NCBI RefSeq assembly: GCF_030813915.1
Contig: NZ_JAUSUJ010000003.1
Location: 248,001-312,000 of the forward strand
Source of the DNA: Rhodoplanes tepidamans
GTDB taxonomy: Bacteria > Pseudomonadota > Alphaproteobacteria > Rhizobiales > Xanthobacteraceae
Reading direction: 5' to 3'
Length of the DNA: 64,000 bases
Shown: positions 14,516-53,491 of the stretch, piece after piece
How positions within the stretch are numbered: the first letter of the stretch is position 1
Layout: the number at the start of each line of letters is the position of its first letter
The notes under the pieces: generated by a model
Database searches by the model: none
The model's input: the letters and a program-made list of their open reading frames with translations, nothing else
Told to the model about the DNA's origin: nothing
Program-made: the position numbers and the translations under genes

Positions 14516-15292
14516 TCACGTCGTCTGGGCGGCACCTCCGTCGACAGCGACCACCGCCATGGTGACGTGCGCAGCTTGGTCGGAAAGCAGGAACAGCACG
14601 GCGTTCGCGACATCCTGCGGCTCGCCGATGCGGCCGAGCGGAATCCCGGGCTTGAACGTCTCCAGCGAGCCGGCGATCACCTGCGCCTCGTCCGACGGAT
14701 CCCTCCACAGGGCGGAGAGCATGGCGGTGCGGGTCGAGCCCGGCGCCACCACGTTGCAGCGGATGCCGTGGCGGCCGAGCTCGAGGCCGAGGCTGCGCGT
14801 GATCATCACGGCCGCCGCCTTCGAGGCCGCATAGGCCGCCATGCCGTGGCGCGGCACGCCGGCCGCGTTGGACGCCACCGTGACGATGCCGCCCTGCCGG
14901 CGCGGCAGCATCCGGCGCGCCACGGCGCGGGAGACGAGAAAGGCGCCGCGGGCGTTGACGTCGAACATGGCGTCCCACGCCGCCGCGTCGGTCTCCAGCG
15001 CAGGCGCCGCCACCAGCACGCCGGCGACGTTGACCAGACAGGCGATCGGTCCGAGATCGCGCTCGACGCGGTCGACCACGGGATCGATGTCGTCCGCCCG
15101 GCGCAGGTCGAGACCGTAGCCATGGGCGCCGGCGCCGATCTCCCGGGCCAGCGCCGCGCAGGCGGCAGCGTCGCGATCCAGCGCCGCGACGACGGCGCCC
15201 GCGTCGTGCAGGCTCTTCATCACGGCGCGCCCGATGCCTCCGGTGGCCCCGGTGACGATCGCGACCCGTTCGTCGAACCCGGCCAGCTCCAT
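14516..15292 (-). CDS. entA: 2,3-dihydro-2,3-dihydroxybenzoate dehydrogenase
   Basis: 258-residue short-chain dehydrogenase that oxidises 2,3-dihydro-DHB to 2,3-dihydroxybenzoate with NAD. The start ATG lies nine bases after the isochorismatase stop, with TGAGGA overlapping that stop as ribosome site. Visible motifs: nucleotide-binding GATGGIG near residue 14, NVAGV, active-site segment VASNAAGVPRHGMAAYAASK carrying Tyr-x-x-x-Lys, and VAPGSTRTAM, which matches EntA/DhbA. A general SDR role would be possible from the fold alone. The adjacent isochorismatase and isochorismate synthase genes make the EntA assignment strong. It is the last step in supplying the aryl cap of the siderophore. Confidence 0.93.
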   Translation of the reverse strand: MELAGFDERVAIVTGATGGIGRAVMKSLHDAGAVVAALDRDAAACAALAREIGAGAHGYGLDLRRADDIDPVVDRVERDLGPIACLVNVAGVLVAAPALETDAAAWDAMFDVNARGAFLVSRAVARRMLPRRQGGIVTVASNAAGVPRHGMAAYAASKAAAVMITRSLGLELGRHGIRCNVVAPGSTRTAMLSALWRDPSDEAQVIAGSLETFKPGIPLGRIGEPQDVANAVLFLLSDQAAHVTMAVVAVDGGAAQTT

Positions 15293-15300
15293 CGCAGTCC

Positions 15301-15933
15301 TCACAAGATCTTCAGGAGATCGTCGGTGGAGATCACGCGGCCGCAGCGGTCGGCCACGTAAGCGAGCGCCGCGTCGTGCCGTGTGCGTGAAAAATCGGCG
15401 ACGGCGTCGGCCACCAGGAAGGGCTCGATGTCGCGCATGAAGGCGTCCGCCGCGGTCAGCATGCAGCCGATATGCGCATAGACGCCGACCACGATCAGCT
15501 GACGGCGACCGCGGGCGCGCAGCATCGGCTCGAGGGTGGTGCGCTGGAAGGCGCTGTAGCGCCACTTGGTGATCACGAGGTCGCCCGGCTCCGGCGCGAG
15601 CTCGGCGACGATGTCGCTGTCGGCTCCGTCCTCGCCCATGCCGGGGCCCCAGATGTCGCCCTGCAGGCCGCGGTCGCGCGGATCCTGGCGGCCCGGCTGG
15701 GCGCTGTAGATCACCGGCACGCCGCGGGCCCGGCAGTGCGCGGCGAGCCGCGCGATGTTGGCCAGCATCGGCGCGATCGGCGCCGCGCGCGGCGGAAAGG
15801 CGCGCACGAAGTAGCCCTGCATGTCGTGGACGAGCAGCGCCGCCGCAGCCGCGTCGGGCCGCCAGCCGACCCGGCACGTCGGCAGCTCGTCCCGGGCCGG
15901 CAGCGCATAGCCGGCGATCTCGGGCAGTCCCAT
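15301..15933 (-). CDS. entB: Isochorismatase (EntB N-terminal type, no aryl carrier domain)
   Basis: 210 residues, ATG at 15933-15931 preceded by GGGAGGGAGA. Hydrolyses isochorismate to 2,3-dihydro-2,3-dihydroxybenzoate and pyruvate. Diagnostic segments include LLVHDMQGYFV (catalytic Asp), VITKWRYSAF (catalytic Lys) and GVYAHIGCMLTAADAF, all very close to EntB/PhzD-type isochorismatases. The protein ends at ISTDDLLKIL, where E. coli EntB continues into an aryl carrier domain, so that domain is absent here and is instead found at the N-terminus of NRPS1. The gene lies between those for isochorismate synthase and EntA on one transcript, which fits stepwise flux from chorismate to DHB. Confidence 0.93.
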   Translation of the reverse strand: MGLPEIAGYALPARDELPTCRVGWRPDAAAAALLVHDMQGYFVRAFPPRAAPIAPMLANIARLAAHCRARGVPVIYSAQPGRQDPRDRGLQGDIWGPGMGEDGADSDIVAELAPEPGDLVITKWRYSAFQRTTLEPMLRARGRRQLIVVGVYAHIGCMLTAADAFMRDIEPFLVADAVADFSRTRHDAALAYVADRCGRVISTDDLLKIL

Positions 15934-15968: not shown

Positions 15969-17120
15969 TCAGACGTCGTCCACGACGGCGACGCCGAGCG
16001 CCGCCAGCAGCGCACCGAACTTGGCCCGCGTCTCGCGGGTCTCCTCGCCCGGATCCGACCCCGGCACGATGCCGGCGCCGGCATAGAGCCGCGCCGTACA
16101 GCCGGTGAACTCGGCGCAACGCAGCGTCACGTACCAGCGGCCGTCGCCACGGGCGTCCGTCCAGCCGATCGCGCCGGCGTAGAAGCCGCGGTCGAACGGC
16201 TCCAGCTCGCGGATCAGCGCGGCGGCGCGCTCGCGCGGCTCGCCGCACACCGCCGGCGTCGGATGCAGGCGCGCCGCCAGCTCGAGCGACGACACTTCCG
16301 GATCCTTCAGCTCGCCCGCGATGCGGCTGCCGAGATGCCACATGGTGGCGGTGGCGACCGGCGACGGGACGGACGGAACGTCGAGGCGCCGGCAGAACGG
16401 CGCCAGGCCGTCGGCGATCGCCTCGACCACGGCGGCGTGCTCACGCCGGTCCTTGTCGGAGGCGAGGAGCGCGCGCGCCGCGGCGGCGTCGGCGGCCGGG
16501 TCGGCGCGCCGGCACGCCGATCCGGCGAGCGGCCACGACACCACCGTCCCGCCGGTCTTCTCGACCAGCAGCTCGGGCGTCGCCCCGATCAGCATCCCGG
16601 TGTCGAGCGGCACCCGGAAGATGGTCACGGCACGGTCGCGGGCGAGGCGGCGGATCACGGCGGCGAGGTCGAAGCCGCCGGCCGCACTCACGACGAGGCT
16701 GCGCGCCAGCACCACCTTGCGCAGCGGGCAGGCCTCGTGCGCCGAGCCGGCGATCGCCGCGAGCGCGCTCGCCACGCCGGCGGCGTAGATCTGCGGATGC
16801 GGCATCGCCGACAGCACGGCGTCGCCGGCGCAAGGTGCGGGCGACGGCTCCGCCCACGGCGCGGTGCGGGCACGGCCGAACCGGCACGGCTGATAGAGAT
16901 GCGCGGGGCGGTCGCGATCGAACGGCAGCGCGCCGACGACGATCGCCGGATCGCCCGGCTCGCCGGCGGCGAGGAAGTCCCGCACGACGTTCGTGCCGAG
17001 TTCACGCACCGCCAGCGGCAGGCGGCGGCGCACGCCTTCGCCGCAGATCTGCTCGCCGTCGCGGACCAGCGCGAACGGCATCGCCACGCCGACGACGTCG
17101 ATCCGACTGCAGTCGTCCAT
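15969..17120 (-). CDS. entC: Isochorismate synthase
   Basis: 383 residues; converts chorismate to isochorismate. The C-terminal chorismate-utilising domain shows the EntC/DhbC pattern: FRVPLDTGMLIGATPELLVE, SWPLAGSACRR, the segment LLASDKDRREHAAVVEAI, LHPTPAVCGEP and FDRGFYAGAIGW, with Glu and His at the usual metal and substrate positions. Because isochorismatase and EntA genes follow directly, the end product is DHB rather than salicylate. ATG at 17120-17118. A 132-bp gap separates it from the transferase gene upstream; it contains an AT-richer patch (about 17205-17250) that could hold a promoter, but no convincing -35/-10 pair was found. Confidence 0.93.
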   Translation of the reverse strand: MDDCSRIDVVGVAMPFALVRDGEQICGEGVRRRLPLAVRELGTNVVRDFLAAGEPGDPAIVVGALPFDRDRPAHLYQPCRFGRARTAPWAEPSPAPCAGDAVLSAMPHPQIYAAGVASALAAIAGSAHEACPLRKVVLARSLVVSAAGGFDLAAVIRRLARDRAVTIFRVPLDTGMLIGATPELLVEKTGGTVVSWPLAGSACRRADPAADAAAARALLASDKDRREHAAVVEAIADGLAPFCRRLDVPSVPSPVATATMWHLGSRIAGELKDPEVSSLELAARLHPTPAVCGEPRERAAALIRELEPFDRGFYAGAIGWTDARGDGRWYVTLRCAEFTGCTARLYAGAGIVPGSDPGEETRETRAKFGALLAALGVAVVDDV

Positions 17121-17252: not shown

Positions 17253-18008
17253 TCACGTCGCCGCGCCATTCCGCGCCAGGCTCCGGCAGCCGTCCCACGG
17301 TGACGACCAGACGCAGCCGATCGCGATCACGCGGACGAATGTCGTCGCGGCGTCGAAGGCGACGGCGCCGCCGTGACGGCCGCCATCTTCCTCCAGATCC
17401 ACGACCCGCAGCCCCTCGCCGATCGGCAGCACCGGCGCGACCAGGTCGGGCCGCGTCGCGATCGTCGTCGGCTCCCGGGCGAAGCCGACCCCGAGCGCCT
17501 TCAGCACCGCCTCCTTGCGGGTCCAGCAGCGCAGCCTGCGCATCGGCCGCTCGGCGTCGTCGCCCGCGCCGAGCCAGGCGCGCTCGTCCGCATCGGCGAT
17601 GGCGAACGCTTCGTCGGCACGGCGCGCGAACGCGGCCTGCGCCTCGACGTCGAGCCCGATCGGCTCGGCCGGCGCCACGGCGAGCGCCACCGTCCCGGCC
17701 GCGTGCGAGATGCTGAAGGCCGGGCCGTCGGGCAGCCACGGCTTGCCGTAGGGTCCGAACAGCAGCGGCACGCCGGCCTGCCCGGGCAGAGCGGCGCGCA
17801 AGAGCGCGCGGCCGAGCGCGAAGCGGCGCCGGTCGCCGTCGCGCATGTAGCGGGCGCGCCGCTCGGTCTCCGCCGCGCTCAGGCAGGCGCCGGAGACCGG
17901 CCAGGAGTCGAGCGTCGTCATCACGACGAGCACGCCGCCGTCGGCGAGCGTGCGCCGGCACGCGGACGCGAGCGCCCCGCCGGCGTCGGCTTGCGGCGGC
18001 GCCGTCAC
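17253..18008 (-). CDS. Sfp-type 4'-phosphopantetheinyl transferase
   Basis: 251 residues starting at a GTG that overlaps the NRPS1 stop (GTGA). Transfers phosphopantetheine from CoA to the serine of carrier domains, and so activates every PCP, ACP and ArCP of this locus. Family motifs: GPYGKPWLPDG, FSISHAAGTVALAVA, IGLDVEAQ (magnesium-binding Asp/Glu), and WTRKEAVLKALGVGF. Length is within the Sfp/Gsp range of about 220-250. Coupling to the NRPS gene argues for a dedicated enzyme. Loss of it would be expected to abolish product formation unless another broad-range transferase exists elsewhere in the genome. Confidence 0.94.
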   Translation of the reverse strand: MTAPPQADAGGALASACRRTLADGGVLVVMTTLDSWPVSGACLSAAETERRARYMRDGDRRRFALGRALLRAALPGQAGVPLLFGPYGKPWLPDGPAFSISHAAGTVALAVAPAEPIGLDVEAQAAFARRADEAFAIADADERAWLGAGDDAERPMRRLRCWTRKEAVLKALGVGFAREPTTIATRPDLVAPVLPIGEGLRVVDLEEDGGRHGGAVAFDAATTFVRVIAIGCVWSSPWDGCRSLARNGAAT

Positions 18009-21000
18009 GCCGCGCCGCTCGGCAGCGCGCGGCGGCGGGCGCCGCGCCGCATCGCCGCCTCCACCATCGCGGTCTCGGCCGCGGCGCTCTTCTCCTCGCC
18101 GGCGAACAGGCGGGCCTGCGCCGCGACGGTCGGGTTGCGGAAGACCGTCAGCACCGGGACGGGCCGCCCGAACCGGCGCGCCAGCCGGTCGCCGAGCCGG
18201 ATGGCGAGCAGCGATGTGCCGCCGGCCTCGAAGAAGTTGAGATCGACGCCGGCCGGCGGCCGCGACAGCACCTCGGCCCAGACCTCCGCCACGGCCCGCT
18301 CGGTCTCGCTCGCCGCCGGTGCCGCCGCGCGAGCCGCGCCCTCGTCCCGCCGGACCGCCTCGGCGAGCAGCGCCGCCCGGTCGATCTTGCCGTTGCGGGT
18401 GAGCGGCAGCGCCGCGATGCGATGCACGGTGGTCGGGATCAGGGCGGCCGGCAGCCGCTCGCGCAGGGCGACGCGGACGGCCTCGCCGTCGACCGGCCCG
18501 ACACCGGCCGCGTCGACCTCGGCCGCGTCGCCGCCGTCGACGACGAACGCCACCAGCCGGTCGCCCTCGGCGGAGCGGATCACCAGCGCGGCGGCCTGGC
18601 GGATGCGCTCGTCGTGGCACAGCGCGCTCTCGATCTCGCCGAGTTCGACCCGCAGGCCGTTGACCTTGACCTGATCGTCCTCGCGGCCGAGGAAGCGGAT
18701 CGACCCGTCGGGCAGCCGGCAGCCGAGATCGCCGGTGCGGTAGAGCCGCTCGCCGGTCTCCGGATGGATCAGGAAGCTCGCCGCCGTGCGGGCCGCGTCC
18801 TCCCAGTAGCCGCGCGCCAGCCCCGCCCCGCCGATGTAGAGATCGCCCGGCACCCAGTCCGGCCGCGGCGCGAGCTGCCCGTCGAGCACGTGGACGCTCT
18901 GGTTGGCGAGCGGGCACCCGTAGGGAACGCTCGGCCAGTCGGGCGGCACCGCGTCGATCGGCTGCGCGATCGACCAGATCGCCGCCTCGGTGGCACCGCC
19001 CAGGCAGACGAAGCGGCGCGTGCCCGGCAGCGCCGCGATCTCCCGCGCCAGCGGCAGCGGCAGCCAGTCGCCGCTCAGCAGCACGACGCGCAGGCGCTCC
19101 AGCACGGCGAGCGCGTCGTGATCGCGCAGGTGGTCGACGAGCAGGCGCATCAGCGCCGGCACGCTGTTCCACACCGTCACGCGGTGCGCCCCGATCAGCC
19201 GCGCCCAGGCGGCCGGATCGGTCGTCTCGTCGGGCGCCGGCAGCACCAGCGCACCGCCGGCCGCCAGCACGCCGAAGATGTCGAAGACCGAGAGGTCGAA
19301 GGTCAGCGCCGACACGGCGAGCACCCGGTCGTCGGCCCCGATGCGGTACCGCGCGGCGACGTCGAGCACGGTGTTGAGCGCCGCGCGGTGCTCGATCATC
19401 ACGCCCTTCGGCTCGCCCGTGGAGCCGGACGTGAAGATCACGTAGGCGAGATCCTCCGGCGCCGCCGGCGCGGCGACCGCGGCGACTTCGGCACCGTCGA
19501 GCAGGGCGTCGTCGAGCAGGGCGTCGTCGACCGCGAGCGCCCCGACGCCGGCCGCCCAAGGCAGCGCGTCGCCGGGCGCGGCGAGGACCACGGCGGCGCG
19601 CGTCGTCGCCATCAGGCCGCGCAGCCGCAGCGGCGGGGCCGCCGGATCGAGCGGCACATAGGCGGCCCCCGCCTTGAGCACCGCCAGCACGGCGACGATC
19701 CGCCGCCAGCCCGACGGCAGACAGACGGCGACCAGCCGGCCGGGCCCGAGCGGCACCGCGTCGAGGAGCGCCTGCGCCAGCCGGTCGCTCGCCCGGTCGA
19801 GCGCCGCGTAGGTCAGGGTGCGGTCGGGCGCGACCACGGCGACGGCCTCCGGCCGCAGCCGCGCCTGCTCGACGAACGGCGCGTGCAGCAGGCCCGCGGC
19901 CACCGGCCGGCCGGTGCGATTGGCGGCGGCCGCGCGGGCGGCCTGGGCCGGCGGCCGCAGCGCCGGCACCGGCGTGGTCCAGGCCTCCGGCGTCGCCACC
20001 AGGCGCCGCAACAGGCCGGTGTGGGCGGCGAACAGGTCGCCGATCAGCCCGTCGGGAAACAGCGCGTCGACCGAATCCCAGATCAGGCGGACTCCGCCCC
20101 GATATTCGACGACCTGATAGTCGATCCAGGTCTGCGGCGTCTGGGTGGCGCCGTGGCGCAGCCGCCCGAACCGCTCGAACGCCTCGAGATAGCCGCCGAT
20201 CCCGACCCCGCTGGTGAACACCACCGGCATGGTGGCACGCCGCGGGGCGCGCTGACGCTCGGCCGAGCGGGCCATCACCTCGACGCCGCTCACCAGCCGG
20301 TGGTCGAGGTCGCACCAGAGCTGCGACTGGATGTGCCGGGCCGCCGCCGAAAACCCCTCGCAGGGGCGCAGATCCGCCTCGACCAGCACCAGCGAGGTGA
20401 AGTCGCCGAGCGTCTCCTCGAACCCCGGGCCGGCGAGGTCGCGGTTGAACAGCGTCAGGTTGATGGTGAAGTGCCGGCTGCGGCTCCACTGCGCCAGCGC
20501 CTGGGCATAGACGGCGAGCAGCAGGCTCGACGGCGTCAGCCCCTCCTGGGCGGCGCGATGCTTGAGGACCAGCCAGTCGCCGGGCGCGATCGTCGCCTGC
20601 CGTCGGACGAAGCGCGAGACGTCGATCTCGGCGGGATCGCGCGCCAGCGGCAGATCCGGGCACGGCGGCAGGGTGGACCGACGCGCATCCCAGTAGGCCC
20701 GGGCGCGGGTGCCGGCGAGCTCGGCCCGCAGGGTCGCGATCCGCCGGACATAGTCGGCGAAGCGCGCGGTCGGCGCGGCGCGGCCGAGGCGGCCGGGCTC
20801 GTCGTACTCGGCCCGCCACTCGGTCATCCAGCGCTCGAGCGAGGCGAGGTCGATGATCAGCACGTCGAAGCCGACATGCAGCACGGTGCGCTCGCCGGGC
20901 AGCAGCGAGGCGCGGATGTCGAACAGCGGCCAGCGCTCGGCCGGGAGCACGGCCGCCTCCATGGCCTGCCGCGTGTCGAGCAGGCGCTGCTCGGCGTCGG

Positions 21001-21658
21001 CCTCGGCGAGACCGCGCCAGTCGCCGCGGGCGATGCGATAGCGGGGCACCGACGCGAGGACACGCTGGGTCCCGTCGGAGCCGACCACGGCCCGCAGCAT
21101 CGGGTGCCGCGCGATCGTCGCGTCGAGGGCCCGCTCCAGCCGGTCGAGGTCGAGGAGGCCGGCCTCGATCTCGGCATAGCCGTGCGCCGCCACCCGGCCG
21201 AGCTCGAACAGGTCGCTGCGCCCGAGCCAGTAGGCGCGCTGCACGTCGGTCAGCGGGAACGGGGCGTGCGGATCGTCGACGGACGACGACGCCGCGTCGT
21301 CCGCGGCCGGAACCGCGTCGGCGGCCGGTGGAGCCACGGCGTTCGGGGTGTCGCCCGCAAGCGACCCGCTCGCCCGCCGGGCCGCGATGATCTTCACCCA
21401 GGCCGTGACGGTCGGCTCTCGCATCAGCTCGGCGAACGTCACCGTCACGCCCTGGCGGGCGCAGGCGGTGGCGAGCCGCATCACGGTGATCGAGTCGACG
21501 CCGAGCTCGAGCATCGGGACGTCCGGCTCGATCTCGCACGGGTCGACGCCTGTCGCCCGGGCGAGCCAGCCGCACAGGCCGTCGATGCTGTCGAGGTCGG
21601 GAGCGGTGCCGGGGAGCGCCGCGCCACCGTCCGGCGCGTGCTCGTCACGGATGTCCAT
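18005..21658 (-). CDS. NRPS1: aryl carrier-cyclization-adenylation(Cys)-PCP
   Basis: 1,217 residues. Order: aryl carrier domain (about 20-95, phosphopantetheine Ser56 in LGVDSI), cyclization domain (about 133-560; heterocyclization motif Asp265-Asp270-Ser273 in DVLIIDLAS, plus LGDFTS, PVVFTSG and QTPQTWID), adenylation domain (about 590-1085; FTSGSTGEPKG, RTGDLG, NGKIDRAAL) and PCP (Ser1149 in GGTSLL). The A-domain pocket reads D-L-F-N-L-S-L-I-W plus the invariant Lys, which matches cysteine activators such as PchE. It should receive DHB from EntE, condense it with cysteine and close a 2-(2,3-dihydroxyphenyl)thiazoline. There is no epimerase, methyltransferase or thioesterase. The start overlaps the MFS gene by 14 bases. 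Layout equals the first half of HMWP2 or PchE without its modifying domain. Confidence 0.95.
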   Translation of the reverse strand: MDIRDEHAPDGGAALPGTAPDLDSIDGLCGWLARATGVDPCEIEPDVPMLELGVDSITVMRLATACARQGVTVTFAELMREPTVTAWVKIIAARRASGSLAGDTPNAVAPPAADAVPAADDAASSSVDDPHAPFPLTDVQRAYWLGRSDLFELGRVAAHGYAEIEAGLLDLDRLERALDATIARHPMLRAVVGSDGTQRVLASVPRYRIARGDWRGLAEADAEQRLLDTRQAMEAAVLPAERWPLFDIRASLLPGERTVLHVGFDVLIIDLASLERWMTEWRAEYDEPGRLGRAAPTARFADYVRRIATLRAELAGTRARAYWDARRSTLPPCPDLPLARDPAEIDVSRFVRRQATIAPGDWLVLKHRAAQEGLTPSSLLLAVYAQALAQWSRSRHFTINLTLFNRDLAGPGFEETLGDFTSLVLVEADLRPCEGFSAAARHIQSQLWCDLDHRLVSGVEVMARSAERQRAPRRATMPVVFTSGVGIGGYLEAFERFGRLRHGATQTPQTWIDYQVVEYRGGVRLIWDSVDALFPDGLIGDLFAAHTGLLRRLVATPEAWTTPVPALRPPAQAARAAAANRTGRPVAAGLLHAPFVEQARLRPEAVAVVAPDRTLTYAALDRASDRLAQALLDAVPLGPGRLVAVCLPSGWRRIVAVLAVLKAGAAYVPLDPAAPPLRLRGLMATTRAAVVLAAPGDALPWAAGVGALAVDDALLDDALLDGAEVAAVAAPAAPEDLAYVIFTSGSTGEPKGVMIEHRAALNTVLDVAARYRIGADDRVLAVSALTFDLSVFDIFGVLAAGGALVLPAPDETTDPAAWARLIGAHRVTVWNSVPALMRLLVDHLRDHDALAVLERLRVVLLSGDWLPLPLAREIAALPGTRRFVCLGGATEAAIWSIAQPIDAVPPDWPSVPYGCPLANQSVHVLDGQLAPRPDWVPGDLYIGGAGLARGYWEDAARTAASFLIHPETGERLYRTGDLGCRLPDGSIRFLGREDDQVKVNGLRVELGEIESALCHDERIRQAAALVIRSAEGDRLVAFVVDGGDAAEVDAAGVGPVDGEAVRVALRERLPAALIPTTVHRIAALPLTRNGKIDRAALLAEAVRRDEGAARAAAPAASETERAVAEVWAEVLSRPPAGVDLNFFEAGGTSLLAIRLGDRLARRFGRPVPVLTVFRNPTVAAQARLFAGEEKSAAAETAMVEAAMRRGARRRALPSGAA

Positions 21659-25655: not shown

Positions 25656-25720
25656 GGTCGGCTCCGCCATCTGGGTCTGGTTTCCGGTCCTGCCGGTCGG
25701 CGACCGGCTCGCCGCTTCGG

Positions 25721-29136
<3,416 letters not shown>

Positions 29137-45400: not shown

Positions 45401-46536
45401 AGGTCGACCGCGCCGCGCTCCGCCGCGCCGAGACGGTGCCGGCACAGCCGGACGCAGCCGCCGGCGTCGCCCCGCCCGCCGCCGCGGCGGACCCGATCGA
45501 CGACAGCCCCGCGATGGCGACGGTGCTGGCCATGGTCCGGGACATCCTCGGCGGGCCGGCCCCGACGGCGGACGACTCGCTGGTCGCACTCGGCGCCTCG
45601 TCGGTCGACCTGATCACGCTGGCGACCCGGATCGAGGCGGCGACCGGCACCCGGCCGCCGCTGCCGCGGCTCGCCGCGGCGGCGCAGCTGCGCGACCTCG
45701 CCGCGCTGGTCGCCGAGCTCGGCGGCACCGGCACCGGCGCCGAGGCGGGCCGGCCGCCGGCGCGGGCCGCCTGGTCGGCGGCCGAGCGGCGGCTCGACGA
45801 CTATGTCGCGAAGCGCCCGCCGATCCTCGACGCCGAGGCGCGCCGCCTGTTCAAGCGGAGCCTGCGCCGGTGGCGACCGGCCGGCGAGGCGATCGACCTC
45901 GCGGCGGCGCCGATCGACGACCTGATCCTCGCGCGGCGGAGCTGGCGGGCCTTCGACCGGGCGCCGTTCGCGCGCGACAGGCTCGCCGCGACGCTCGCCG
46001 TGCTGCGCGAGGCCGAGGTGGCGGGCCAGCCGCGCCGGGCCTATGCGTCCGCCGGCGGCCGGTACCCGCTCGAGACGCATGTGTGGATCGCGCCCGGCCG
46101 CGTCGCCGGGCTGGCGGCCGGCGCGTGGTGGTACGATCCGCAGAGCCACCGGCTGGTGCATCGCGTGGCGGCGCCCTGTCCGCCGATCGCCACGCCCGGC
46201 AATGCCGGCTGGCTCGACGGCGCCGCCTTCGTCCTCTGCTTCGCGCTCGCCCTCGACGTCGTCGCACCACTCTACGATCGGGCCAGCCTCGCCTTCGGGC
46301 TGATCGAGTGCGGCGCCGTCTGCCAGCTCCTGGAGACGGCGGCGATGGAGAACGGCCTCGGCCTCTGCCAGGTCGGCGACGCGCCGCTGGAGACTCTGCA
46401 CGCCGCGCTGCGGCTCGGCCCCGACCAGCCCTGCCTGCACGTCGCCGCCGGCGGCGCCATCGCGGCCGCCGATCTCGCGGCGTGGCGGGCCGCGCCGGTC
46501 GGATCGGTGGCGCCGACCCTGGAGGGCAGCCTGTGA
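42454..46536 (+). CDS. NRPS3: cyclization-adenylation(Cys)-PCP-oxidase (thiazole-forming)
   Basis: 1,360 residues. The cyclization domain (about 45-490) has Asp179-Asp184-Ser187 in DMLICDQQS, VGDFTS, PVVFTST and SRTPQVILD (Arg replaces the usual Gln). The adenylation domain (about 515-965) has YTSGSTGAPKG and pocket D-L-H-N-L-S-L-I-W plus Lys, a cysteine-type code with His at the third position. PCP Ser1050 lies in LGASSVDL. The last ~250 residues are a nitroreductase/SagB-McbC-like FMN oxidase: ARRSWRAFDRAPF, ASAGGRYPLETHVWIAP, AGAWWYDP, and ECGAVCQLLETAAMENGLGLCQVG. In epothilone, bleomycin and similar synthases such a domain oxidises thiazoline to thiazole. The gene ends in a GTGA overlap with NRPS4. 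Placement of the oxidase after the PCP, rather than within the A domain, is a known variant. Confidence 0.93.
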   Translation: MTLSTTDPTGFDSALLERLLRLDGTVGPPGTAADAAASIVADPAREAAPFPLTEIQRSYLIGRDPSLPLGGTSCQVYYEIDCDALDIDRYASAWNRTIARHGMLRAVIEDATRQRILPAVPPLVPPVHDLRDAADPEAMLEPIRTRLAGETRPHDAWPLFAVEISLLPDGHRRVHVAMDMLICDQQSFLRILDDVATLYADPDTVLPPIGLSFRDYVLQVRDEPEAQARDRGYWRAKRDTLPDAPALPLAGPLGAVPTPPAFETLDAEIDPARWSRLQALAGRLAVTPSVLLLAVFGEVLARFSDAPRFCLNTTMYDRRPLHPDVDALVGDFTSTMLFEMEVQPGETWRGLIERLQRDLWRDMEHRACSGLAMAADLARYRGRLDGVPMPVVFTSTLTQNDTRLLGRARAQPGRQICVRSRTPQVILDNQMIEWEGALRLRWDVVPAAFAGPVPARLLAAMMDHLAALADDPGLIDAPPARPDPSAADLVPPLVAPAPATRLHDLWLDRLPAAAARPAVATASGTVTHGELAARVAGIADLLRRHGVRPGEPVALLGVKGVDQIAACLAVAIAGGAYVPIDAAQPAARQSAILADLAPRLTLAAGARPPDSFAGTVIDVATVPPGDTEDLTGHAGASADHLAYVIYTSGSTGAPKGVAVSHAAAVNTVLDVNARFGLGMGDVVLGLSALHFDLSVHDVFGVLGAGGCLVLPDAAEQRNPSHWLALCRQHGVTVWNTVPSLFGLFVETCALAPAASRSLALRTALLSGDWIPVDLPGRARALWPNLEMISLGGATEAAIWSIFHRIETVDPAWTSIPYGRALGGQQVFVLDEGLAIAPPGKTGELFVAGRGLACGYYGDGERTAAQFLAHPRTGLRLYRTGDLGRYREDGTIEFLGRRDEQVKIDGHRVETGEVVAALRAHPAVREAVVLATEGRAHRRLVAHVEADDVAFVELDRWLRSRLPDHFVPARWSRVTRWPLTANGKVDRAALRRAETVPAQPDAAAGVAPPAAAADPIDDSPAMATVLAMVRDILGGPAPTADDSLVALGASSVDLITLATRIEAATGTRPPLPRLAAAAQLRDLAALVAELGGTGTGAEAGRPPARAAWSAAERRLDDYVAKRPPILDAEARRLFKRSLRRWRPAGEAIDLAAAPIDDLILARRSWRAFDRAPFARDRLAATLAVLREAEVAGQPRRAYASAGGRYPLETHVWIAPGRVAGLAAGAWWYDPQSHRLVHRVAAPCPPIATPGNAGWLDGAAFVLCFALALDVVAPLYDRASLAFGLIECGAVCQLLETAAMENGLGLCQVGDAPLETLHAALRLGPDQPCLHVAAGGAIAAADLAAWRAAPVGSVAPTLEGSL

Positions 46537-49500
46537 GCCTCTCGGATCTGCTCGACCGGCTCGATGCGCGCGGCATCCGCCTGTGGGTCGAGGACGGCCA
46601 GCTCCGCTACCAGGCTCGCGCCGGTGCGCTCGACGCTCCCCTGCGTGCCGAGATCGCCGCGAGGAAGCCGGACCTGATGGCCCGGCTCGCGACGCTCGCA
46701 GCCGCTGCCGTACCTCCGGCGGCGCCTGCGTCGCCGATCGTCCCCTGCCCGGCCGACCGGTTCCGCCCGTTTCCGCAGACGCCGATCCAGGAGGCCTACC
46801 GGGTCGGCCGGTCGGAGGCGATGGCGCTCGGCGGCGTCGCCGCCCACAGCTATGTCGAGCTGGAGCGGAGCGGCGTCGGGGTCGAGACCGTGGCGCGCTG
46901 CCTCGACGAGGTGATCACCCGCCACGACATGCTGCGGGTGGTGATGTGCGAGGGCGGGCAGCAGCGCGTGCTGGAGACGGTGCCGGCCTACGAGATCGCG
47001 ACCACGGACCTGACCGGGCTGTCCGAGTCGGACTGGGCCGCGGCGCTGGTGGCGATCCGGCGCGAGATGGAGAGCTGCACCCGCGATCCCGGCACCTGGC
47101 CGCTGTTCGAGATCCGGGCGACGCGCCGCGGCGACGTCGTGCGGCTGCATGTGAGCGTCGACCTGATCGCGCTCGACGCCTTCAGCTGGCAGCTCTTCTT
47201 CCAGGAATGGCTCGACCTCGTCGACGGCATCGTGCCGCCGCCGGCGCCGACGCTGCTGTTCCGCGACGTGCTGCTCTCCGGCCGCGACACCGGCGCGGCG
47301 CGCCGCGCCGCCGCCCGGGCCTATTGGCGGGACGCGCTTCCGGCGCTGCCGCCGGCCCCGACCCTGCCGCCGCCCGCCGCCGGCACGCCGAACCGCTTCC
47401 GCCGCTTCGCCGGCCGCCTGGAGGCGCCGCGCTGGGCGGCCTTCAAGGCGACCTGCCGGGCGACCGGCGTGACGCCGTCGATCGCGCTGTGCACCGTGTT
47501 CGCCAACGTGCTGTCGCGCTGGAGCCGCAACGAGGACGTCGCCCTCGACGTGACGCTGTTCAACCGGCCGCCGATCCATCCCGAGATCGAGCGGGTGCTG
47601 GGCGAGTTCACCGACGTCACGTTCCTGGGCTTCTGCGGCATCGAGCGGCCGCTCGCCGATCAGATGCGCGATGCCGGCACGGCGCTCCTGGAGCACATCG
47701 AGCACGGCGCCGTCGACGGCGTGACGCTGCTGCGCGAGCTCGCCCGGCTGCGCGGCGACTTCGGCGGCGCGCTGATGCCGGTCGTCTTCACCAGCATGCT
47801 GATGGGCGACGCCCGCGCCGCGCGGCCGATCTCCTGGCGGCAGGTCTACGGCCTGAGCCAGACCCCGCAGGTGGCGCTCGACCATCAGGTGATCGAGCGC
47901 GACGGCGCCATGCTGTTCAACTGGGACATCTCGGCGGCCGGCATCGACCTCAACGCCGTGCCGCCGATGCTGGCCGCCTACGAGGCGGCGCTCGACCGGC
48001 TCGCCTGCGAGCCCGAAGCCTGGACGCAGCCGCTGCCGCGCACGCTGCCGGGCGCGCAACGGGCGACGCGGGCCGCCGTGCGGGCCGAGGCGGGCGCCGC
48101 CCGCATTCCGGCCGGACCCGACGCCGGCCTCGACGCGCCGTTCTGGGCGGGCCTCGACGCACGGGCGGAGCGGCCGGCCGTGATCTGGTCGGGCGGCACG
48201 CTCACTCACGGCGCGCTGGCGGAGCGGGCGCTGGCGCTCGCCGCACGGCTCGACGCCGCCGGCGTCGCGCCCGGCGACCGGGTCGCGATCCGGCTCGCCA
48301 AGGGGCCGCTGCAGGCGGTCGCGGTGCTCGCCGTGCACGCGCTCGGCGCCGCCTATGTCCCGATCGCCCCCGACCAGCCGGCGGCGCGCGCCGCCGCCAT
48401 GACGGCCCAGGCGCGGCCCGCCGCCGTGATTTCTTCGCGCGACGGCGCGGGCGACGCCTTCGAGACCGGGCTCCCGACGGTCGCGGTCGGGCTCGACGAT
48501 CCGCTCGACATCGCGCCCGCCGCGCGCTTCGCGCGCCGCCCCAATGGTCCCGACGACCTCGCCTATGTGCTGTTCACGTCGGGCTCGACCGGCGTGCCGA
48601 AGGGCGTCGCCATGGCGCACGGCGCGGTGCGCAACACCATCGACGACATGATCGCGCGGTTCGGCTTCGGCCCCGACGATCGCGTGCTGGCGCTCTCGGC
48701 GCTCGATTTCGACCTCTCGGTCTACGACCTGTTCGCGCCGCTCGCCGCCGGCGGCGCCGTGGTGATGCCGGACCCGGACAGGACCCGCGATCCCGACCAC
48801 TGGCTGGCGCTCCTCGCCGCCCACCGGGTCACGGTGTGGAACTCGGTGCCGACCTTCCTGGCCATGCTGCTCGCCGCCTGGCGGATCGACGCGGCGGCGC
48901 TCGCCGGGCTGCGCCTCGTGCTGGCGAGCGGCGACTGGATGCCGCTCGACCTCGCCGGCCGGCTGCGTCGGCTCGCCCCGGCGGCGCGGCTGATCGTGCT
49001 CGGCGGCGCCACCGAGGCGGCGATCTGGTCGAATGCCCAGGAGGTCGAGACCGTGCCGCCGCAGTGGCGCGCGGTGCCCTACGGCCGGCCGCTGCGCGGC
49101 CAGCACTATCGGGTGCTCGACCGCGCCGGCGCCGACCGGCCCGACCTCGTCTGCGGCGAGCTCCACATCGGCGGCGCCGGGCTGGCCCTCGGCTACTGGG
49201 ACGACGCCGAGAGGACCGCCGCGGCGTTCGTCCGGCACCCCGCCGACGGCGAGCGGCTCTACCGGACCGGCGATCTCGGCCGCTTCTGGCCGGACGGCAC
49301 GCTGGAGTTCCTCGGCCGCGCCGACACACAAGTGAAGATCGGCGGCCACCGGGTCGAGCTGGGCGAGATCGAGCACGCCCTCGAATCCCATCCCGCCGTC
49401 GCCCGCGCCGTCGCCGCCGTGCAGGCCGGCGGCGCCCCGATGCTGGTCGCCCATGTGGTTCCGCGGCCCGGCGCGACGGTCGAGCCGGAGGCGCTGCGGG

Positions 49501-49895
49501 CGCATGTGCAGGGCCTGCTACCGCGCCACATGGTGCCGCGGCTGATCGGGCGCCTCGCCGCGCCGCCGCTCACCGTCAACGGCAAGATCGACCGCCGCGC
49601 CCTGCCGGTGCTCGCCGCCGCGGCGCCTTCCGCACGCCCCGCGTCACAGCTGGAGCGCCGGATCGCCGCCGTGCTCGGGCGCCTGCTCGGCCGCGCCGAC
49701 ATCCCGCCCGACGAGAACTTCTTCGAGCTCGGCGCCACCTCGGTGCTGCTCGTCGAGGCGCACGGGCGGCTGCGCGACGAACTCGGTGTCGCCCTGTCGG
49801 TGACGGATCTGTTCGCCCATCCGACCCTCGCGAGCCTCAACGCCGCGCTCGCCCACCGCGCGGCGGAGCCGCGCCCGGACACGCCTCCCGCATGA
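46533..49895 (+). CDS. NRPS4: TubC docking-cyclization-adenylation(Cys)-PCP
   Basis: 1,120 residues from a GTG overlapping the NRPS3 stop, with GGAGG eight bases upstream. Residues 1-55 are a TubC N-terminal docking domain (LDARGIRLWVEDGQLRYQA). The cyclization domain (about 80-525) carries Asp210-Asp215-Ser218 in DLIALDAFS, LGEFTD (Glu for the usual Asp), PVVFTSM and SQTPQVALD. The adenylation domain (about 550-1010) has FTSGSTGVPKG and pocket D-L-Y-N-L-S-L-I-W plus Lys, so cysteine. PCP Ser1070 lies in LGATSVLL. The protein ends about 50 residues later with no thioesterase or reductase, so it may be the last module, released in trans, or an internal one feeding PKS1 or the small carrier protein. 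The type II thioesterase gene follows with an ATGA overlap. Confidence 0.94.
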   Translation: MSLSDLLDRLDARGIRLWVEDGQLRYQARAGALDAPLRAEIAARKPDLMARLATLAAAAVPPAAPASPIVPCPADRFRPFPQTPIQEAYRVGRSEAMALGGVAAHSYVELERSGVGVETVARCLDEVITRHDMLRVVMCEGGQQRVLETVPAYEIATTDLTGLSESDWAAALVAIRREMESCTRDPGTWPLFEIRATRRGDVVRLHVSVDLIALDAFSWQLFFQEWLDLVDGIVPPPAPTLLFRDVLLSGRDTGAARRAAARAYWRDALPALPPAPTLPPPAAGTPNRFRRFAGRLEAPRWAAFKATCRATGVTPSIALCTVFANVLSRWSRNEDVALDVTLFNRPPIHPEIERVLGEFTDVTFLGFCGIERPLADQMRDAGTALLEHIEHGAVDGVTLLRELARLRGDFGGALMPVVFTSMLMGDARAARPISWRQVYGLSQTPQVALDHQVIERDGAMLFNWDISAAGIDLNAVPPMLAAYEAALDRLACEPEAWTQPLPRTLPGAQRATRAAVRAEAGAARIPAGPDAGLDAPFWAGLDARAERPAVIWSGGTLTHGALAERALALAARLDAAGVAPGDRVAIRLAKGPLQAVAVLAVHALGAAYVPIAPDQPAARAAAMTAQARPAAVISSRDGAGDAFETGLPTVAVGLDDPLDIAPAARFARRPNGPDDLAYVLFTSGSTGVPKGVAMAHGAVRNTIDDMIARFGFGPDDRVLALSALDFDLSVYDLFAPLAAGGAVVMPDPDRTRDPDHWLALLAAHRVTVWNSVPTFLAMLLAAWRIDAAALAGLRLVLASGDWMPLDLAGRLRRLAPAARLIVLGGATEAAIWSNAQEVETVPPQWRAVPYGRPLRGQHYRVLDRAGADRPDLVCGELHIGGAGLALGYWDDAERTAAAFVRHPADGERLYRTGDLGRFWPDGTLEFLGRADTQVKIGGHRVELGEIEHALESHPAVARAVAAVQAGGAPMLVAHVVPRPGATVEPEALRAHVQGLLPRHMVPRLIGRLAAPPLTVNGKIDRRALPVLAAAAPSARPASQLERRIAAVLGRLLGRADIPPDENFFELGATSVLLVEAHGRLRDELGVALSVTDLFAHPTLASLNAALAHRAAEPRPDTPPA

Positions 49896-50671
49896 CAGTT
49901 CCGCCCTGCCTGCCCTATCGCTGCCGCAAGCCGCTCGCGGCGCTCGACCTGATCTGCTTCCACTACGCGGGCGGCAACGCCGCCGTGTTCCGCCGCTGGG
50001 ACGAGCGGCTGCCGGCGTGGATCAGCGTGCGCCCGATCGAGCTGCCCGGCCACGGCGCCCGCATGGGCGAGCCGCCGCTGGCCGACCCCGAGGCGCTGGT
50101 GGCGCAGCTCGCGGCCGAGCTGATCGGGGCGCAGCACCGCCCCTTCGCGCTGCTCGGCCACAGCTTCGGCGCCGCGCTCGCCTTCCGGGTGGCGCTCGCG
50201 GCCGAGCGGGCCGGACGACCGCCGGCGCATCTGTTCGTCTCCGGACGCCATGCGCCCTCCTTCGCGGGCCGGCTGCGGCCGCGCATCGGCCTCTCCGACG
50301 CGGCGCTGCTCGCCGAGCTGCGCTTCCTCGGCGGCACCCCGGACGAGGCGCTCGCCAGCACCGAGCTGATGGCCCTGATGGGCCCGATCATCCGGGCCGA
50401 CTTCGTCGCCAGCGAGCTGATGACCCGGGCGCCGCGAACCGACGCGGTCGCCTGTCCGCTCGACGTGATCGGCGCCGACGACGACCAGGAGGTCGACCAT
50501 CGCGAGCTCGACCGCTGGCGCGCCCACACCACCGGCGCCTTCACGCTCACGGTGATGCCGGGGCGCCACTTCTTCATCCACGACAGCGTCGACGCGATCT
50601 GCCGGATCGTCGTCGACCGCCTGTCGCCCCGCCTCGGGCCATCCGGCCGCCCCGCCGTCGCCCATGCCTAA
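49892..50671 (+). CDS. Type II thioesterase
   Basis: 259 residues, an alpha/beta-hydrolase of the GrsT/PchC/YbtT group. Nucleophile Ser91 is in GHSFGAALAF. The acid is in GADDDQEVD and the histidine in GRHFFIHD, with the typical front segment ICFHYAGGNAAVF and LPGHGARMGEPP. Such enzymes hydrolyse wrongly acylated or stalled carrier domains. As no terminal thioesterase is fused to any synthase in the window, this protein could alternatively release the finished chain. ATG overlaps the NRPS4 stop by four bases, and its 3' end overlaps the acyltransferase start by eight bases. Confidence 0.92.
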   Translation: MTVPPCLPYRCRKPLAALDLICFHYAGGNAAVFRRWDERLPAWISVRPIELPGHGARMGEPPLADPEALVAQLAAELIGAQHRPFALLGHSFGAALAFRVALAAERAGRPPAHLFVSGRHAPSFAGRLRPRIGLSDAALLAELRFLGGTPDEALASTELMALMGPIIRADFVASELMTRAPRTDAVACPLDVIGADDDQEVDHRELDRWRAHTTGAFTLTVMPGRHFFIHDSVDAICRIVVDRLSPRLGPSGRPAVAHA

Positions 50672-51881
50672 CGACGGACCCGACATGGACTCCATCCCCA
50701 CCGCACCCCGGCCGCAGCGCGGCTTCGTGCCCGAGATCGACGCGCTGCGCTGCTTCGCGCTGACCGCCATCGTGCTCCTGCACAGCAACGTCGTCGCCTC
50801 CGGCTGGGGGGCGCTCTGGCTGTTCTTCGTGATCAGCGGTTTCGTGATCACGCGGTCGATCCTCGAGCACCCCGAGCGCCGCCCGACCCGGACGGCGTTC
50901 CTGCTCGGCTTCGTCCGACGGCGGGCGGCGCGGATCCTGCCCGTCTACGTCCTCTATCTGTCGATCGTCGGCGGGCTCGGCCTGCTCGACCCCGGTTCGC
51001 GCTTTCCGGAGGCCCTGCCGTTCCTCGCGACCTTCACGTACAATCTGGCGGGGCTCCACGATCCGGCACTGTTCAAGGTGGGCGGCGTCGGCCATCTGTG
51101 GTCGCTGAGCCTGGAGGAGCAGTTCTATCTGCTGCTGCCGCTCGTCTTCGCCGTCGTGGCGCCGCGCCGCGTCGTCGTGCTGCTGCTCGCCGTCGTCGCG
51201 CTGAGCCCGCTGATCCGCTGGGGCGAGAGCCAGTGGCTGGGCGCCCTCGGGGTCCCCGAGGAGATGCGGGCGCTCGGCGTGTTCATGCTGAGCCCGGGCC
51301 AGTTCGACGGCTTCGCGGCCGGCGCTCTGGTCGCGATCGCCGCCCACGAGCGCGCCGTCACGCCCCGCCTCGCCTGGACGGCGGTGCTGCTCGCCGTGAC
51401 CGCAGCGGCGCTCTATCTCGTCGTCTACTGGGACCATGCGGGCACGCCGCGGCTCGGCCTCGCGATCGGCGCCGGCCGCGAGGCGATCGTCTACTCGGTG
51501 CTGATCCTCGCCGCCGTGGCCACCATCCTCGCCATCCTGGCGCGCCTGCCGCCGATCGTGTGGATGTGCCGGCCGCTGGTGGTCCGCTACATCGGCCGCA
51601 TCTCGTATGGCGGCTACGTCTACCACGCGCTCGCGCTGTTCGCGGCGATGATCGCTCTGCCCGGCTGGATCGCCGGCTCGCCGCTGCAGCGCCTCGCCGT
51701 CTTCGCGATCGGCTACACGCTGACGATCGCCTTGGCGGCGCTGTCGTTCCATCTGTTCGAGCGCCGCTTCCTCGACGGCCCGCTCGGCCGGCCGCTGCGC
51801 CCGGCCGTCGCCGCTCCGGACGCCATTGCCGCGGGCCTGGCCGCGCCGGCCGTCGCCGGTTCCGACGGGAGGGACGCATGA
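50664..51881 (+). CDS. Membrane acyltransferase, acyltransferase-3 (OafA/YrhL) family
   Basis: 405 residues with about ten transmembrane helices. Family hallmarks: EIDALRCFALTAIVLLHS at the front (the His is the proposed catalytic residue), LFFVISGFVITRSIL, RRRAARILPVYVL and HLWSLSLEEQFYLL. These proteins move acyl groups, often acetyl from acetyl-CoA, to sugars, lipids, peptides or antibiotics at the inner membrane. The SGNH extension found in some members is absent. Its place between the thioesterase and the DHB ligase, overlapping both, makes it part of the biosynthetic operon, so O- or N-acylation of the product is plausible. I do not recall such a gene in the yersiniabactin or pyochelin loci. 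A second ATG at 50685 is an alternative start. Confidence 0.88.
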   Translation: MPNDGPDMDSIPTAPRPQRGFVPEIDALRCFALTAIVLLHSNVVASGWGALWLFFVISGFVITRSILEHPERRPTRTAFLLGFVRRRAARILPVYVLYLSIVGGLGLLDPGSRFPEALPFLATFTYNLAGLHDPALFKVGGVGHLWSLSLEEQFYLLLPLVFAVVAPRRVVVLLLAVVALSPLIRWGESQWLGALGVPEEMRALGVFMLSPGQFDGFAAGALVAIAAHERAVTPRLAWTAVLLAVTAAALYLVVYWDHAGTPRLGLAIGAGREAIVYSVLILAAVATILAILARLPPIVWMCRPLVVRYIGRISYGGYVYHALALFAAMIALPGWIAGSPLQRLAVFAIGYTLTIALAALSFHLFERRFLDGPLGRPLRPAVAAPDAIAAGLAAPAVAGSDGRDA

Positions 51882-53491
51882 TCCCGGCGCGGCAGATCTG
51901 GCCGGAGGACTTCGCCGAGCGCTATCGCCGGCTCGGCTACTGGCGCGGCGAGACCTTCGGGGCGCTGCTGCGGGCGCGCGCCGCCGCCGATCCGGCGCAT
52001 CTCGCCGTCGTCGGCGGCTGCGACCGCTGGAGCTACGCCGACCTCGACGCCCGCGCCGACGCGCTCGCCGCCGGATTTCTGCGACTCGGTCTCGTGCCGG
52101 GCGAGCGGGTGCTGCTGCAGCTCGGCAACGAGGCGCGGTTCCTGTCGCTGGTGTTCGGGCTCTTCCGGGCCGGGCTCTTGCCGGTGTTCGCGCTGCCGGC
52201 CCACCGCCGCACCGAGATCCGCCATCTGATCACGCGCGCCGAGGCGGCCGCCTGTGTGGTGCGCGACACCATCGACGGCTTCGACCACCGCGGCCTCGCC
52301 CGCGAGATGCGCACGCTCTGCCCCGGCCTGCGCCATGTCGTGGTGGCCGGCGACGCCGCAGACTGCGTGCCGCTCGATCAGCTCGAAGCCGAGGCGCCGC
52401 GCGACCTGCCCGAACGATCTCCCTCGGAAGTCGCGTTCCTGCAGCTCTCCGGCGGCTCGACCGGCCTGCCCAAGCTGATCCCGCGCACCCACGACGACTA
52501 CATCTACAGCCTGCGCGGCAGCGCCGCGATCTGCGGCCTCGGCCGCGACAGCGTGTATCTGACCGCCCTGCCGGCGGCCCACAACTTCCCGATGAGCTCG
52601 CCCGGCAGCCTCGGCACGCTCCACGCCGGCGGCACCGTCGTGATGGCGCCGTCGGCGAGCCCCGAGGAGGCCTTCGCCCTGATCGCGCGCGAGCGCGTCA
52701 CCATCACCGGTCTGGTGCCGCCGCTGGCGCTGCTGTGGGCCGAGGCGGCGCCGGGCCTGCCGCACGACCTGTCGAGCCTGAAGGTGCTGCAGGTCGGCGG
52801 CGCCAAGCTGACGCCCGCGATGGCGCGCCGCATCGTCGCCGCCTTCGGGCCGCGGCTGCAGCAGGTGTTCGGCATGGCCGAGGGCCTGGTCGCCTACACG
52901 CGGCTCGACGACGACCCGGATCGCGTCCTGGAAACCCAGGGACGGCCGATCAGCCCCGACGACGAGCTTCTGGTCGTCGACCCGGACGACCGGCCGGTGC
53001 CGCCCGGCACGCCCGGCGCCCTGCTGACCCGCGGCCCCTACACGATCCGGGCCTATCACGACGACGACGCGGCGAACGCCGCCGCCTTCACGCCGGACGG
53101 CTTCTACCGCACCGGCGACGTCGTGATCATGAGGCCGGACGGCTACCTTTCGGTGCAGGGCCGGCTCACCGACCGCATCAATCGCGGCGGCGAGAAGTTC
53201 TCCCCCGAGGAGGTCGAGGACCATCTGCTCGCCCATCCGCAGGTGCGCGACGCCGCCGTGGTGTCGGTGCCGGACCCGGTCTGGGGCGAGCGCGCCTGCG
53301 CCTTCGTCCTGCCGCGCGACGACGCGCCGACGGCGCGCGCCCTCAAGGCCTGGCTGACGGAGCGCGGCATCGCCGCCTTCAAGATCCCCGACCGCATCGT
53401 CTTCGTCGCCGCCTTCCCGGAGACCGCGGTGGGCAAGACCAGCCGCCGCGACCTGCGCGAAGCGCTGCGGAAAAGCCTCGCGACGACCTGA
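51878..53491 (+). CDS. entE: 2,3-dihydroxybenzoate-AMP ligase
   Basis: 537 residues, ATG overlapping the previous stop (ATGA) with GGGAGGGACGC upstream. Activates DHB with ATP and loads it on the aryl carrier domain of NRPS1. Family segments: [14 protein letters not shown] at the front, [35 protein letters not shown] (A3), [13 protein letters not shown] with the Asn and Ser that contact the DHB hydroxyls in Dhb[17 protein letters not shown], and a C-terminal [10 protein letters not shown] (A10 Lys). A salicylate ligase (PchD/YbtE) is closely related, but the EntABC genes point to DHB. It is the final gene of the plus-strand operon, remote from the DHB biosynthesis genes, so the two operons must be co-expressed. 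Confidence 0.94.

Follow-up and report, generated by a model that had tools for sequence, protein, structure and literature searches.

Gene content and extent of the locus

The window analyzed here, a 64,000-nucleotide stretch of Rhodoplanes tepidamans contig NZ_JAUSUJ010000003.1 (GC content 73.8%; the Gram-negative host has a genome of 6.86 Mb), very probably contains a cluster for siderophore biosynthesis and uptake. Genes for a 2,3-dihydroxybenzoate (2,3-DHB; DHB) starter lie there together with those of a nonribosomal peptide synthetase (NRPS), a polyketide synthase (PKS), a crotonyl-CoA carboxylase/reductase (CCR), transporters, and a regulator (Table 1), all assigned as intact open reading frames (ORFs) with matches to Pfam or NCBIfam profiles. 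Between 34346 and 3804, reading leftward, all genes called lie on the minus strand and are separated by no more than about 184 bases; their order is TubC-PCP, PKS1, m2, CCR, KS444, MFS transporter, m1, 4'-phosphopantetheinyl transferase (PPTase), EntC, EntB, and EntA, followed by HlyD, the MacB-type ATPase and permease, two ABC half-transporters, the TonB receptor, and the ExbB-like protein. On the plus strand, the AraC regulator (34477–35340), which presumably controls the locus, is followed by PKS2, m3, m4, the thioesterase (TE), the acyltransferase, and EntE (37918–53491); KS745, on the minus strand, sits between AraC and PKS2. The 26 gene translations checked contain neither a stop nor a frameshift, and all Cy, A, carrier, and ketosynthase (KS) domains inspected have intact catalytic residues.

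The initial annotation had confined the locus to 14516–53491. This holds for the biosynthesis genes, but, on the strand of the minus-strand biosynthesis genes, the locus reaches left to ∼3804, taking in the ExbB-like protein, the TonB receptor, the ABC pair, and the MacAB-like exporter (for the HlyD-type protein of which, ORF 13276–14613, a start near 14331 is preferred by coding score). The PPTase, the stand-alone TE, and the membrane acyltransferase also belong to the locus. Genes for export, uptake, and regulation, likewise annotated alongside, were found as a FyuA-like receptor, a YbtPQ/IrtAB-like pair, the MacAB-like exporter, and the AraC regulator. Judged from its sequence, the gene set would very likely build, export, and re-import a molecule that presumably binds iron.

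Table 1. Features of the locus (window coordinates) and the evidence for their assignment.
Feature	Position	Strand	Evidence
ExbB/TolQ-like proton-channel protein	3804..5018	-	PF01618 108.5 bits
TonB-dependent outer-membrane receptor	5098..7602	-	PF00593 and PF07715; best solved relative FyuA 4epa, 81.2 bits
ABC half-transporter, YbtQ/IrtB-like	7727..9511	-	YbtQ 253.7, YbtP 221.4 bits among ~600-aa half-transporters
ABC half-transporter, YbtP/IrtA-like	9508..11331	-	YbtP 331.5, IrtA 318.9 bits
MacAB-like exporter	11328..14613	-	ATPase 11328-12044; FtsX/MacB permease 12041-13279; HlyD-type fusion protein 13276-14613
EntA/DhbA-type 2,3-dihydro-2,3-DHB dehydrogenase	14516..15292	-	TIGR04316 297 bits, cut-off 300
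EntB-type isochorismatase, without carrier domain	15301..15933	-	PF00857
EntC/DhbC-type isochorismate synthase	15969..17120	-	TIGR00543 262.4 bits, cut-off 224.75
4'-Phosphopantetheinyl transferase (PPTase)	17253..18008	-	PF01648
m1: ArCP-Cy-A(Cys)-PCP	18005..21658	-	Profiles, motifs; 48-52% identity to Shinella/Azospirillum m1
MFS transporter	21645..22925	-	PF07690
KS444: stand-alone KS	22918..24252	-	Cys/His/His present
Crotonyl-CoA carboxylase/reductase (CCR)	24249..25670	-	TIGR01751 433 bits; PDB CCRs 418-446 bits
m2: Cy-A(Cys)-PCP	25721..29146	-	Profiles, motifs
PKS1: KS-AT(RAGH)-KR(Tyr to Asn)-ACP	29137..33744	-	Profiles, motifs
TubC docking domain-PCP	33756..34199 (longer GTG start 34346)	-	PF18563, PF00550
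AraC-family regulator	34477..35340	+	PF12833, PF00165
KS745: KS and eroded AT	35347..37584	-	KS tree; alignment
PKS2: KS-AT(HAFH)-KR-ACP	37918..42441	+	Profiles, motifs, KS tree
m3: Cy-A(Cys)-PCP-Ox, nitroreductase-fold oxidase	42454..46536	+	PF00881; best PDB BmdB 596, PchE 454.6 bits
m4: TubC-Cy-A(Cys)-PCP	46533..49895	+	46-59% identity to four relatives
Stand-alone thioesterase (TE), GHSFG	49892..50671	+	PF00975
Membrane acyltransferase (Acyl_transf_3)	50664..51881	+	Pfam
EntE/DhbE-type DHB-AMP ligase, HNFPMSSPG	51878..53491	+	Best PDB DhbE 1md9, 684.4 bits

Proposed assembly line and predicted product

The four annotated Cy-A(Cys)-PCP modules were all recovered: DxxxxD is present in 4/4 Cy domains, and 4/4 A domains have a cysteine-type signature (D-L-F/Y/H/Y-N-L-S-L-I-W for m1/m2/m3/m4), which was mapped by eye on anchor motifs, with a GrsA numbering of the positions and an assignment to cysteine that we take to be the customary ones. 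The start of the NRPS on an aryl carrier protein is likewise found on m1 (ArCP-Cy-A-PCP), the oxidase domain is a C-terminal nitroreductase-type Ox on m3 (PF00881), predicted to be a thiazole oxidase, and the docking-carrier protein is real (TubC-PCP). The TubC domain of the latter is 46% identical to that of m4, and its PCP is nearest to m1-type PCPs (37–40%), because of which its interpretation as a relic of the TubC-Cy-A-PCP protein of Shinella was dropped.

Two ketide units are supported by the two KS-AT-KR-ACP proteins. In PKS2, the AT has the motif HAFH, and the KR its catalytic Tyr; in PKS1, the AT has RAGH, and the KR has Asn at the position expected for the catalytic Tyr. The annotated domain string thus stands for both proteins but overstates reduction by PKS1. 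The Tyr-to-Asn exchange is shared with the homologue from Veronia. No cMT, DH/ER, or terminal TE domain was matched by Pfam (E 0.001) in m1–m4, PKS1, or PKS2.

In the line that we propose, EntC, EntB, and EntA would turn chorismate into 2,3-DHB, EntE would load it onto the ArCP of m1, and the Cy domains would make thiazolines from cysteine. PKS2 would add malonate and reduce it to the alcohol, m3 would add a cysteine ring to be oxidized to a thiazole by its Ox domain, and m4 would add a thiazoline. PKS1 would then add an ethylmalonyl unit supplied by the cluster CCR, the keto group of which is probably retained because the KR has no catalytic Tyr, m2 would add the final thiazoline, and the acid would be released by the stand-alone TE or by water. 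The predicted product is DHB-thiazoline-CH(OH)CH2-thiazole-thiazoline-CO-CH(Et)-thiazoline-COOH. With ethylmalonyl, the PKS2 KR active and that of PKS1 inactive, it would be C25H26N4O6S4 with [M+H]+ at 607.0808, or at 609.0964 with both KRs active (579.0495 and 581.0651, respectively, with malonyl in place of ethylmalonyl); calculated in the same way, lusichelin gives its published value of 577.1066. On balance, we consider it probable that this is a siderophore locus of chimeric build, with the line EntE → m1 → PKS2 → m3 → m4 → PKS1 → m2 and the use of DHB and ethylmalonyl.

Comparison with known systems

Four cysteine-derived rings, one of them a thiazole, with two ketide units had initially been regarded as a new scaffold, but lusichelins A–E already have this plan: salicyl-thiazoline, ketide, thiazole, thiazoline, ketide, thiazoline (PMC12210259, J Nat Prod 2025). 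By published module description, not by sequence, LusQ (Cys), LusR (PKS), LusS (Cys, Ox), LusT (Cys), LusU (PKS), and LusV (Cys, TE) of the putative lus cluster of Lusitaniella coriacea (PMC12210259) match m1, PKS2, m3, m4, PKS1, and m2, respectively. The module content aryl-Cys-ketide-Cys(Ox)-Cys-ketide-Cys is thus present in the window, its order across proteins being the proposed one. This module-for-module match supports that order and, at the same time, removes the claim to a wholly new scaffold. Further shared are, according to the same description, the aryl cap, Cy domains, Ox in the second Cys module, and TonB, ABC, MFS, and AraC genes; a salicylate synthase, DH in LusR, DH-ER in LusU, cMT in LusT and LusV, and TE in LusV are given for lus only. 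The lus AT is described as malonyl-type (HAFH), and no CCR is mentioned for lus, whereas the window combines DHB, a RAGH AT with a CCR, and extra KS proteins. Features that look new compared with lusichelins are therefore the cap made from DHB, a RAGH-type AT accompanied by a CCR, and the chimeric make-up. If true, the lusichelin plan, known with a salicyl cap from a cyanobacterium, would be extended to a catechol-capped molecule of a TonB-bearing bacterium, and ethylmalonyl (CCR) extender chemistry would enter the thiazoline siderophores.

Yersiniabactin- and piscibactin-type systems share with the window Cy-A(Cys) modules, KS-AT-KR-ACP followed by a Cy module, and FyuA/YbtPQ/YbtA-like uptake and regulation. 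They have a salicylate cap and fewer Cys modules, and to our knowledge no CCR; here, EntA and EntB are present and the ligase motif is of the Ser type. DHB activation is shared with anguibactin- and vanchrobactin-type systems, and in anguibactin a Cys-derived ring is attached to DHB; we know of no multi-thiazoline PKS line among them. A literature search for a DHB/thiazoline/ethylmalonyl siderophore returned, by title and abstract, only reviews or unrelated work, with most subscription papers lying outside its coverage.

The starter unit

EntC, EntB, and EntA for DHB supply, and EntE, are all present as intact ORFs with profile matches, as annotated. The antiSMASH rule for 2,3-DHB NRP metallophores consists of EntC and EntA (PMC12971057), and EntC exceeds the cut-off of its profile, TIGR00543. 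EntB is an isochorismatase domain alone, the ArCP of the cluster being carried by m1; its best PDB match was a "putative hydrolase" (7l6j, 255.5 bits), followed by EntB (2fq1, 227.2 bits) and VibB (226.5 bits). In an alignment with five solved ligases, the motif of the window EntE was identical to that of 6e8o (HNFPMSSPG) and resembled that of DhbE (HNYPLSSPG), whereas the salicylate ligases have HNFALACPG (5wm2) or HNFTLCCPG (PchD). The EntC score, that of EntA just below its cut-off, and the Ser-type motif together support a catechol start.

The ligases of the close relatives in Shinella and Azospirillum have HNFPFACPG and are encoded beside PchB-like CM_2 proteins, so these clusters look salicylate-primed; neither a salicylate synthase nor PchB is among the genes called in the window. 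The differing ligase motifs and the PchB-like neighbors point to a change of starter, between DHB and salicylate, in the history of this group.

Relatives and proposed chimeric origin

A scan of genome contigs returned at least 78 loci, of which the best 78 were kept. Full-length relatives of m3 among the matches listed were those of Azospirillum agricola (52%), Shinella yambaruensis (50%), Lysobacter pythonis (46%), and Photobacterium chitinilyticum (45%); PKS2, m3, and m4 are contiguous in all four, which share this front half with the window. The Shinella and Azospirillum clusters (L118–L120 and L124–L127, respectively) share m1, PKS2, m3, and m4 (48–59% identity), the YbtPQ-like pair, the TonB receptor, and AraC with the window; m1 and the EntC- and EntE-like genes come after PKS2-m3-m4 there. 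They differ in their PchB-like lyase, the Cys-type ligase motif, and the back half, and, unlike the window, their genomes contain no CCR over cut-off. The back half of the relatives is a single protein, KS-AT(RAFH)-KR-ACP-Cy-A-MT-PCP (by Pfam in Azospirillum and Lysobacter, by BLAST only in Shinella), in addition to which they have a further TubC-C/Cy-A-PCP protein.

The two extra KS proteins that had been annotated are real, and one of them was traced to this back half. In a KS tree of 53 rows (the best 40 of 43 matches and 13 named domains; the bootstrap had not fully settled), KS745 fell into one clade (100/100) with the KSs of the Lysobacter, Shinella, and Azospirillum back halves, to which its KS is 55–61% identical, and PKS2 into another (100/100) with its counterparts from the four relatives; KS444 was a lone long branch. 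This placement rejects KS745 as a duplicate of PKS1 or PKS2. Compared with the relatives' AT, that of KS745 has several in-frame gaps, GVGTGV in place of GHSIGE, and no RAFH stretch. KS745 thus appears to be a remnant of the original back half, of which the KS stayed behind and the AT eroded. Among the matches listed, PKS1 and m2 score best (873 and 875 bits, respectively) with two neighboring genes of Veronia pacifica (L089), whose cluster ends in TE-CCR, and the cluster CCRs of the window, Veronia, and Mailhella form one clade (98/98). The locus thus shows signs of being a chimera of a Shinella/Azospirillum-type front half and a Veronia-like PKS1-m2-CCR back half, in which the old KS was kept and a DHB starter module stands in place of a salicylate one.

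No second copy of the cluster was found: with m3 as query, 120 relatives contained no comparable cluster, 385 genomes of the class contained five other matches at E<=1e-200 (38–45% identity, none comparable), and 398 genomes of the phylum contained no comparable cluster (these samples and the family sample below overlap).

KS444, KS745, and TubC-PCP might act as extra modules in trans, for additional ketide or chain-parking steps, which would make the product longer or different. All three keep their catalytic or carrier residues, and KS745, with its conserved KS and eroded AT, looks as if selection keeps the KS only; none, however, brings an AT of its own, and the cluster has only two ATs and two ACPs, so that we regard such a product as rather unlikely. 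With the proposed line, it is a tentative possibility that the product is the first tetra-thiazol(in)e siderophore to combine a catechol cap with a branch derived from ethylmalonyl, and that two unrelated clusters were spliced into its assembly line, in which KS745 hands the chain in trans from m4 to the foreign PKS1. If true, KS745 would be a natural example of an old ketosynthase kept as an adaptor that fits a new module to an old line, and the traceable splice (KS kept, AT eroded) would make the acceptance of foreign modules testable by gene removal.

Several genes of the relatives were observed besides. Acyl_transf_3 directly follows TE in three of the clusters (window 50664–51881, L121:8599–9717, and L033:18176–19255), the relatives concerned being Lysobacter and Photobacterium, and PKS2 would leave a hydroxyl free at this point. 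Between TE and PPTase, Shinella has Lys/Orn-monooxygenase-like, Cys/Met pyridoxal phosphate enzyme, and OsmC-like genes (L119:5715–9335); Azospirillum has similar-sized genes at this place.

The cluster CCR and the RAGH-type AT

The annotated CCR is genuine, exceeding the TIGR01751 cut-off (378.55 bits). It is a second copy; a primary-type CCR of 605.9 bits is encoded elsewhere in the genome (contig C16) and falls into a separate clade, which rejects the cluster CCR as the primary enzyme of the organism. In 391 family genomes, the window CCR had no match other than itself at E<=1e-150; a CCR of 47% identity might fall short of this limit.

RAGH ATs, among the matches listed, occur in the window, Veronia L089, Mailhella L096, and a metagenome-assembled genome (MAG) of Spirochaetales, L101. 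In all 4 of these clusters, a CCR is on the same contig, a pairing found in 0 of 18 further genomes that were tested: a CCR over cut-off is missing from 12 of them and lies on a different contig in the other 6 (for the fragmented MAG G520, one of the 18, adjacency is possible). In Veronia L089 and Mailhella L096, a CCR over cut-off lies just past the locus ends, adjoining TE in overlapping stretches, and in L101, where it was expected in advance from the RAGH AT, it is present on the same 56,610-base contig. The non-RAGH loci L033, L039, L042, L066, L088, L091, and L093, whose genomes lie outside the 18-genome test, gave no tblastn match with the window CCR. RAGH AT and cluster CCR are thus pointing to an ethylmalonyl extender, for which the PKS1 AT is the only candidate because that of PKS2 is HAFH, and their pairing could serve as a genome-mining marker.

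PKS1 might instead take malonyl- or methylmalonyl-CoA on the same line, the CCR being anaplerotic or providing alkylmalonyl via KS444. The PKS1 AT has GHSLG, as do the malonyl ATs here, AT motif swaps can be silent (PMC6090053), and the CCR gene overlaps that of KS444 by 4 bases. Against this, the CCR lies in the operon between m2 and KS444 and is not the primary one, and cluster CCRs recur only with RAGH ATs among the clusters tested; we consider this use of PKS1 unlikely.

The Veronia (L089/L134) and Mailhella (L096/L135) clusters share with the window the RAGH AT, KS-AT-KR-ACP followed by a Cy-A module, and TE followed by CCR, but differ in starters and module numbers. That of Veronia pacifica (L142–L144, L134) is a thiazoline PKS-NRPS cluster with a PKS-type start, a RAGH AT module, a HAFH module with MT, and TE and CCR. 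The Mailhella MAG (Desulfovibrionaceae; L135 with L096) has a yersiniabactin-like cluster with an EntE-like ligase, two Cys modules first (ArCP-Cy-A-PCP-Cy-A-PCP), KS-AT(RAGH)-KR-ACP, and Cy-A-MT-PCP at the end, together with TE, CCR, a YbtPQ-like pair, AraC, a TonB receptor, and ExbB.

Weighing of the proposed line

A number of observations weigh against the proposed line. With respect to DHB, EntA is just below the cut-off of TIGR04316, its best family, EntE likewise falls slightly short with its best family, TIGR02275 (680.5 bits, equivalog cut-off 723.55), and 5kei, one of the five solved ligases and labeled a DHB ligase, has a Cys motif (HNFPLACPG); we take 5kei to be MbtA, a salicylate enzyme. 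With respect to the ethylmalonyl unit, the four RAGH ATs form one clade (99/91) in an AT tree of 43 rows, from which HSPs (high-scoring segment pairs) of <260 aa or with stops had been dropped beforehand. The four pairings with a CCR are therefore not four independent events, and Fisher's p = 1.4e-4 is overstated. The CCR of L101 lies ∼29 kb from the RAGH PKS, has 34% identity, and belongs to another CCR lineage. In FkbB AT4, an AT motif swap left ethylmalonyl use unchanged (PMC6090053), so RAGH can be no more than a marker. The Mailhella KR, which departs at Asn, retains the Tyr that PKS1 lacks. In the KS tree, the PKS1 KS pairs with one from Gemmatimonadota (L052; 88/84) and not with Veronia L089, which speaks against a simple single transfer. 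Finally, KS444, KS745, and TubC-PCP have no place in the scheme, and there is no integrated TE at the end of the line.

Instead of a siderophore, the cluster might make a toxin-like secondary metabolite or a copper or zinc metallophore. Copper is bound by lusichelins in addition to iron (PMC12210259), but the DHB cap, the receptor (nearest to FyuA among solved structures), and the half-transporters (YbtQ/YbtP and IrtAB being best among half-length proteins, although double-length ABCB exporters score higher in total) argue for a siderophore, and we hold these other functions to be improbable. That the cluster is decaying, made of recombination fragments and without a product today, as the AT erosion of KS745, the loss of Tyr in the PKS1 KR, and the lack of the NRPS in the five genus mates searched might suggest, is very improbable given the intact translations and catalytic residues and the occurrence of the same Tyr-to-Asn exchange in Veronia.

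Surroundings of the locus

Rfam and tRNA scans of the window found nothing, and a transposase-like stretch near 53.9 kb had no Pfam match. A 16S search of the genome itself gave 0 matches, as it did for 5 of 14 control genomes. Among six intergenic regions (three region pairs), one 9-mer only was shared, between two of them. To the right of the locus, a very large protein resembling filamentous haemagglutinin (DUF3739) is encoded at 54320–63973 (minus strand), its frame being open at the edge of the window, and a further ORF of 3358 aa was called at contig positions 316641–326717. To the left, a glycoside hydrolase family 94 protein of ∼1300 aa is encoded at 34–3945 (plus strand).

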